From: Opitutus sp. GAS368
GTDB lineage: Bacteria; Verrucomicrobiota; Verrucomicrobiia; Opitutales; Opitutaceae
NCBI GenBank assembly: GCA_945871085.1
Contig: CAMBVX010000002.1
Span: 1-64,000, forward strand
DNA length: 64,000 nt
Direction of reading: 5' to 3'
Part shown: in pieces, positions 19,524 to 21,300 of the stretch
Position numbering within the stretch: the stretch's first letter is position 1
Layout of the letters: each line of letters begins with the position of its first letter
Notes under the pieces: generated by a model
The model's database searches: none
Told to the model about the DNA's origin: nothing
Seen by the model: the letters and a program-made list of their open reading frames with translations, nothing else
Made by a program: the position numbers and the translations under genes

Positions 19524-19619
19524 GGCCAGGTGCCATGCATGAGCAGGCGCGTGAACTCCGCCAGGACCGGAAGGTAGCAACGGCAACGACGTTCTCTTAG
19601 TGCCGTGGAGTGCCTGGCC
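19524..19619 (+). ncRNA. ffs: Bacterial SRP RNA (4.5S-like, small SRP RNA)
   Basis: GTGAACTCCGCCAGGACCGGAAGGTAGCAACGG core matches the conserved SRP domain IV; GGCCAGG...CCTGGCC closing stem; lies upstream of dnaX. Confidence 0.92.
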
Positions 19620-19640
19620 ACTTATTTTTTCGCGGCGGGC

Positions 19641-19711: not shown

Positions 19712-20881
19712 ATGGCGGGCACATATCAAGTTATCGCGCGCAAGTGGCGGCCTCAGACCTTCGCCGACCTCGTCGGTCAAGATCACGTGGTCCGCACGCT
19801 GACCAACGCCATCAACCGCGGGCGGATCGCCCACGCTTACCTGTTCGTCGGACCGCGCGGTACCGGCAAGACTTCGACGGCGCGGATTTTTGCGAAGGCG
19901 CTCAATTGCACTGACGGACCGAAGGCGGATTTTGACGTCAACGACCCGGCGTGCGTCTCGATCGCCGAGGGTTCCCATCTCGACGTGGTGGAGATCGACG
20001 GTGCTTCCAACAACGGGGTCGATCAGGTGCGGGATCTCCGCGAGACGGTGCGCTACGCGCCGGCGCAGGGAAAATTCAAGGTCTACATCATCGACGAGGT
20101 GCACATGCTTTCGGCGCAGGCGTTCAATGCGTTGCTCAAGACCCTCGAGGAGCCGCCGGCACATGTGAAGTTTGTTTTTGCGACGACCGATCCGCAAAAG
20201 GTGCTGCCGACGATTATCTCGCGTTGCCAGCGCTTCGATCTGAAACCGATCCCGACCGACCTGATCGTGGAGCGGCTCAAAAAAATCGCGGTCGACGAGA
20301 AGATCAAAGTGACGGATGCCGCGCTCGGGTGTATCGCGCGCATGGCGGATGGAGGGATGCGCGATGCGCAGTCGATCTTTGACCAGATGATTTCGTTTTG
20401 TGGGGCGGAGATTTCCGAGCCCGACGTGCTGGATGTCTACGGGTTGGTGTCCGCCGAGAAAATCGCGGCGCTCGCGGCGGCGCTCGCGGCGGGCGATCAC
20501 CAGAAGTTGGTGGCGATCGTAGATGACTGTGACGCGGGCGGCCGCGATCTGGTGCGGTTGCTCGTCGATTTGCAGGCGTTGGTGCGGACGGCGTTGCTCG
20601 ACGCGATCGCGAAGGGCGGGCGGAGCGATGCGCTCGGAGGCGTCGCGATGACCACCGAACAAATCACGCGGATGCTCGACGGCCTGCGCGAAGGCGAGGG
20701 GAGTGTGAAGCTCGGGCTCGCTGAGAAAATTAATTTTGAAGTGACCTTGCTGAAGGCCGTCGAGGCGAGCCGGTCGCGGGCGATCGACAGCCTTATCAAA
20801 GAACTCGCGGCCCTGGCCGACGAGTCGCCGGCGGCCCCTGCAGTGGCCGGGACAGACGACAGCGAAAAAAAAAAGGACTGA
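19712..20881 (+). CDS. dnaX: DNA polymerase III subunit gamma/tau, zero-frame (gamma-like) product
   Basis: [72 protein letters not shown]; terminates just after an A10 tract. Confidence 0.96.
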
Positions 20882-21300
20882 TTGAGCGATTGGAGATGCG
20901 CTTGGCCGCCGCGCTCGTGGCCGAGGGCCATGGCCGAGTGCTGACGGCGAAGGTGGACGTCGCCGAAAACGTGGAGAAGACGAGCGCACAGGCTGAGGAC
21001 GTGGCCGAGGCGGCCGCGACCGCAGCTCCGGCGACGATGGAAAATGGCGCGAATGTTTGGCCCGATGAAAACGCGGAGGCGGCGTTTATCGCGGATGCGC
21101 GTCAGCGGGGCGAGCCGGCCAAGGCAGCGGCGACCACGGTTCGAGCGGCGGAGGAAAAAGAGGATTTGCAGCGAGCGCTGCCACCGCTGGCGGAGTTGGT
21201 GAACCGGCTTTCACCGGCGGTGAGGGAGACGCTGGACGATCTTTTCCGGGTGAAGTTTACGGCCGTGCGTCGAGTGCCGAAAAGCGTGTTGAAGGGGTGA
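20882..21300 (+). CDS. dnaX: -1 frame continuation of dnaX (tau-like C-terminus), probably reached by frameshifting or transcript slippage
   Basis: Frame -1 from the A10 tract reads [18 protein letters not shown]...LPPLAELVNRLSPAVRETLDDLFRVKFTAVRRVPKSVLKG* without stops. Confidence 0.7.

Follow-up and report, generated by a model that had tools for sequence, protein, structure and literature searches.

The window analysed here is a stretch of 64,000 nucleotides, positions 1 to 64,000 of contig CAMBVX010000002.1 of Opitutus sp. GAS368 (assembly GCA_945871085.1), and it contains a dnaX gene that a run of ten adenines (A10) divides between two reading frames: the zero frame encodes the short form and the -1 frame the tail. 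The features of the locus, in window coordinates, are as follows.

19524-19622, forward strand: immediately ahead of dnaX, the gene for the bacterial small SRP RNA (Rfam RF00169, 61.4 bits).
19712..20881, forward strand: dnaX zero frame, from ATG 19712 to TGA 20879-20881, encoding a gamma-like DnaX of 389 amino acids with clamp-loader domains I-III.
20865..20874, forward strand: A10 slippery run, read directly; zero frame GAA AAA AAA AAG, which holds A_AAA_AAG in phase.
20879..20881, forward strand: zero-frame TGA that closes the gamma-like product.
20875..21300, forward strand: continuation in the -1 frame, the tau-specific C-terminal region, 141 amino acids, with its stop TGA at 21298-21300.
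20875..20904, forward strand: conserved start of the -1 product, consensus gLIdRLEaRL, predicted to form a helix.
21178..21297, forward strand: conserved tau C-terminal motif, LPPLxELVxRIPxxVRExLDDLFRAKFxxVRRVPKxxLK.

The zero-frame product carries the gamma/tau AAA+ core with domains I-III, matching the NCBIfam model dnaX_nterm (TIGR02397; 424.7 bits, cut-off 250) and the Pfam families DNA_pol3_delta2, DNAX_ATPase_lid and DNA_pol3_gamma3 (27.9 against a cut-off of 24.4). Its 3' end reads ...GAC AGC GAA AAA AAA AAG GAC TGA, whilst the -1 frame is open from upstream of the run to the TGA at 21298-21300 (about 420 nucleotides), giving a product that ends in LPPLAELVNRLSPAVRETLDDLFRVKFTAVRRVPKSVLKG. 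Direct reading of the sequence thus bears out what a preliminary description of the site had reported, namely the coordinates, the A10, the in-phase A AAA AAG, the stop two codons on and the -1 frame that stays open as far as 21300. No second full dnaX is found in the 7.37 Mb draft genome (630 contigs), the window copy being the only one. A match to Rfam sR32 at 20892-20946 was disregarded, as its score lies far under the gathering score.

What, then, does the -1 frame encode? Among close relatives, substitutions in this frame occur at 0.22, 0.19 and 0.41 at codon positions 1, 2 and 3, respectively, and the dominance of third-position changes marks the tail as a real coding region under purifying selection. 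In related families where dnaX is one continuous open reading frame, the same tail follows the gamma part within the zero frame, and comparison of the -1 tails with the C-termini of continuous Opitutales DnaX proteins by hhalign gives an E-value of 1.4e-11. An HMM built solely from the tails of relatives with a continuous dnaX frame was also run against 156 loci that bear the run: in 142 of them the match fell in the expected frame, in none did it fall in another frame, and the remaining 14 gave no match. Because a model derived from continuous genes detects the tail, the -1 frame encodes the tau C-terminus. The assignment of the gamma-like form to the zero frame and of the tau C-terminus to the -1 frame, as originally proposed, is therefore supported by this homology and by conservation within the family.

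The end of the tail, whose consensus may also be rendered LPxLdeLVxRIPxxvRExLDeLFRAKFtxVrRVPkkaLK, holds L, F, R and V residues that are invariant across 18 diverse sequences. The tail has no match in Pfam, NCBIfam or the PDB, and homology to the tails of other Verrucomicrobia was not detected, so that its recognition as a tau-specific C-terminal region runs only through the continuous Opitutales relatives. AlphaFold predicts a helical tail, though with low confidence (pLDDT 68, pTM 0.23), and a role in polymerase or helicase binding is suggested by the position of the tail in the protein. Long acidic or proline-rich C-terminal extensions are present on the tau tails of several loci of the order, including L117, L120, L125, L148 and L150.

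Conservation in relatives, which the preliminary description had named as a check, is complete within the family. The Opitutaceae sample comprises 110 dnaX loci from 49 genus codes, one of which is interrupted by a contig end, and all 109 that reach the site have an uninterrupted run (A10 in 93 and A9 in 16), a zero-frame stop just past it that closes a product of 380-396 amino acids, and an open -1 frame. Runs of fewer than nine adenines were not found among these 109. An identical arrangement is seen in a named set of 14 loci, for instance in Cephaloticoccus primus and Opitutaceae MAGs, a set that overlaps partly with the genomes of the family sample. The run occurs in the family as two different sequences, GAA AAA AAA AAG and TCA AAA AAA AAG/C. 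A_AAA_AAG stands in phase in the window, as it does in 104 of the 123 Opitutaceae and named loci; in the other 19 the last codon of the run is AAC or AAA. Where lysine is conserved at other sites of these genes, its codon is AAA in only 6-36% of sequences, so the run is maintained against codon bias. Counted on both strands, the 7.37 Mb genome has just three A10 runs, that of dnaX among them; given this rarity and the recurrence of the run in all Opitutaceae dnaX genes extending to the site, the arrangement is beyond chance.

The survey also took in 80 loci of the order that lie outside the Opitutaceae, their families being referred to by the genome collection's own codes. Here, 30 loci have a continuous open reading frame, 24 have A9 or A10 with a -1 tail, and 19 have A9 or A10 with a +1 tail, the remainder being three short genes without a run and four loci cut by contig ends. 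The +1 tails are spread over five families (f7, f13, f15, f16 and f18), several of which also hold continuous genes, and 17 of the 19 are confirmed by the HMM, with E-values down to 2e-12 (L141). The clearest case is family f16, where L141, with its +1 tail, groups with the continuous L116, L124 and L280. At some loci of these families the run ends in ACG, AGT, ATG, AAT or ATC. A tree of the gamma part calls for a minimum of 11 switches between slippage and continuous genes and of two changes of direction, and that of a smaller set for 12 and four, respectively; the gamma-part tree was built quickly and many of its forks are weak, and the number of changes is blind to gain versus loss. The three short genes without a run (L170, L171 and L172, families f6 and f23) come from genomes of about 0.8-1 Mb and encode 366-406 amino acids; L170 and L171 have a short terminal tail that resembles the tau C-terminus, and in these lineages the tau extension may have been lost, or just its end kept.

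These observations lead us to infer that production of the long dnaX product probably requires programmed transcriptional slippage at A10, with RNA polymerase rather than the ribosome as the main slipping agent and with both proteins made. In this process the standard readout of A10 would yield an mRNA that is translated as far as the TGA two codons after the run, giving the 389-amino-acid gamma-like clamp-loader subunit. Slippage of RNA polymerase on the run would generate transcripts with A11 (or A8, or other lengths of the same phase), in which the zero-frame stop is bypassed and translation proceeds in what is the -1 frame at the DNA level. The product would be a tau of about 530 amino acids whose C-terminal region, by analogy with other bacteria, may contact the helicase, the polymerase alpha subunit or both. 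A single gene would thereby supply both gamma and tau, each with its own presumed role, and slippage would be obligatory for tau. In keeping with this interpretation, a run of at least nine adenines is kept throughout the Opitutaceae loci that reach the site, and in relatives both its phase and the base after it vary. Transcripts of variable length are favoured further in that a single device serves both -1 and +1 tails, when -1 ribosomal slippage cannot decode a +1 tail; Antonov et al. (PMC3711429) took opposite shift directions within one gene family as a criterion for transcriptional realignment. At the level of the order, it is rather likely that an A9/A10 slippage cassette at the gamma/tau boundary of dnaX has been gained or lost at least 11 times among the Opitutales and has switched between -1 and +1 tails, whilst being fixed in the Opitutaceae, so that RNA-polymerase slippage would be an obligatory yet evolvable route to the tau of an essential replicase, the level of slippage possibly setting the gamma:tau ratio.

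The leading alternative is that the ribosome, rather than RNA polymerase, shifts by -1 at A_AAA_AAG and so bypasses the TGA to make tau, using the type of signal found in E. coli dnaX with a reversed outcome. In E. coli, tau is encoded in the zero frame and gamma arises through -1 ribosomal frameshifting at A_AAA_AAG, aided by a Shine-Dalgarno (SD) sequence and a stem-loop. The window gene shares with it the same gene identity and the same heptamer in phase, which in the window and in most of the Opitutaceae and named loci lies directly ahead of the stop; moreover, A_AAA_AAG is the most shift-prone heptamer of its type in E. coli, A_AAA_AAC and A_AAA_AAA being far less so (PMC5009743). However, the heptamer demands merely six adenines and a G, yet every locus has at least nine adenines, and it is missing from the 19 exceptions noted above and from many loci of the other families; relatives, moreover, have +1 tails. 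Nor are the usual stimulators apparent: SD-like sequences upstream of the run are not enriched (23 of 115 loci against a background of 19%), and RNAalifold on 18 loci returned no conserved downstream stem-loop (no structure, energy 0.0) and no covariation. Compared with controls, the 60-nucleotide windows downstream of the run show marginally higher stability (mean z -0.46, controls -0.10), which counts against slippage of the polymerase. The combination of a fixed run of at least nine adenines, both shift directions, run ends other than AAG, and the lack of SD enrichment and of conserved downstream structure nevertheless favours RNA-polymerase slippage and makes E. coli-type frameshifting an unlikely main mechanism, though a ribosomal contribution at A_AAA_AAG in the window gene, and joint use of the two mechanisms, are possible. 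Thus, of the two mechanisms that the preliminary description offered, the transcriptional, Thermus-like one is retained and the ribosomal one is disfavoured. The hairpin it reported downstream (CTCGTGGCC...GGCCGAG) does exist in the window, but finds no support as a functional element, as its arms are confined to three near-identical genomes, the window and two others (L005 and L006), and the downstream fold in the window is no more stable than that of shuffled sequences (z -0.57).

A second alternative, which is very improbable, is that the two frames yield separate polypeptides, the -1 frame being translated alone by reinitiation after the gamma stop. Candidate starts do exist in the window, with non-ATG codons (TTG at 20890) and an ATG shortly downstream of the stop, but across the 123 loci a -1-frame ATG or GTG lies near the stop in just 67, and in eight of those with an SD-like sequence; continuous relatives encode this tail and the gamma part as one protein, and reinitiation leaves the keeping of at least nine adenines without a reason. 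Finally, that dnaX is really one reading frame (A11 or A8) misread by sequencing or assembly, or a broken gene, can be dismissed, since, even granting that homopolymers are error-prone and that this is a draft genome in many contigs, the same frame relation recurs in more than 100 loci (the 109 of the family, single-contig genomes such as L184-L190 and both run sequences included), the homopolymer is held against codon bias, the -1 frame bears the marks of purifying selection, and the sole dnaX of a genome is not plausibly dead.

The programmed transcriptional slippage proposed here has precedents. Thermus thermophilus dnaX undergoes transcriptional slippage on an A9 run (PMC1088944, PMC5009743), and the likeness extends to an A9/A10 run at the gamma/tau boundary and to the production of gamma and tau from one gene by what is, in our case, inferred polymerase slippage. 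The organisation is nonetheless the reverse, for in Thermus tau is in the zero frame and slippage gives gamma, and the window dnaX lacks the Thermus arrangement of a zero-frame tau with stops in both other frames. A further parallel is provided by Shigella mxiE and slippage genes of IS elements, where slippage on a homopolymer joins two open reading frames into a longer protein, although mxiE is an unrelated gene and its run is composed of U's (PMC1088944). The closest match is the reversed, two-ORF dnaX type, in which recoding is needed for tau. As described in 2013 by Antonov et al. (PMC3711429), it comprises 17 genes from 12 genera, nine of them with 10 A's, and includes Chloroherpeton and Chlorobium with 7-9 A's; the short form is read in the zero frame, the long form continues into the -1 frame past an A-run that is often A10, and transcriptional realignment was proposed. 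It was summarised again in 2016 (PMC5009743). The Opitutaceae genes have the same hallmarks, with a zero-frame stop right past the slip site, a tail in another frame and a conserved poly-A run at the junction, and they belong to this known type. The contrast with E. coli drawn in the preliminary description is consequently correct, but the type had already been published (PMC3711429). What is new is the conservation across the order and the switching of direction: relative to PMC3711429, the present study adds an order-wide survey, full conservation in one family, both shift directions and continuous relatives. Opitutales are not named in the main text of that paper, though its survey included four Verrucomicrobia genomes and some overlap is possible. 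Full-text literature searches pairing dnaX with Opitut- or Verrucomicrobi- turned up no other account.

If RNA polymerase is indeed the slipping agent, a core replisome subunit that is normally essential appears to depend on the infidelity of transcription throughout a bacterial family. Why the gamma form exists has long been debated, and the order offers a set of natural replicates, with both shift directions and continuous genes, in which the purpose of that form and the choice between ribosomal and transcriptional recoding can be tested by comparison. Automated annotation probably calls such dnaX genes as proteins of 380-396 amino acids and so misses tau.

The other two A10 runs of the genome lie outside dnaX. 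The second (L255, G000:C74:12511-12520, minus strand) is found near the end of a long Ala-rich open reading frame, where the zero frame stops 44 nucleotides after the start of the run and the -1 frame continues for about 330 nucleotides to a LysM-like tail (GRTHTVVGGDTLTKIAQRYYG...). In relatives of the same genus the LysM tail belongs to a long uninterrupted frame, and no such A10 run was found there, such that the run looks lineage-specific, a homopolymer frameshift or an error that slippage could mask. The third (L256, G000:C143:2860-2869, minus strand) sits inside a continuous open reading frame that, by the look of its sequence, resembles a Gfo/Idh/MocA-type oxidoreductase, and slippage at this run would truncate the product.
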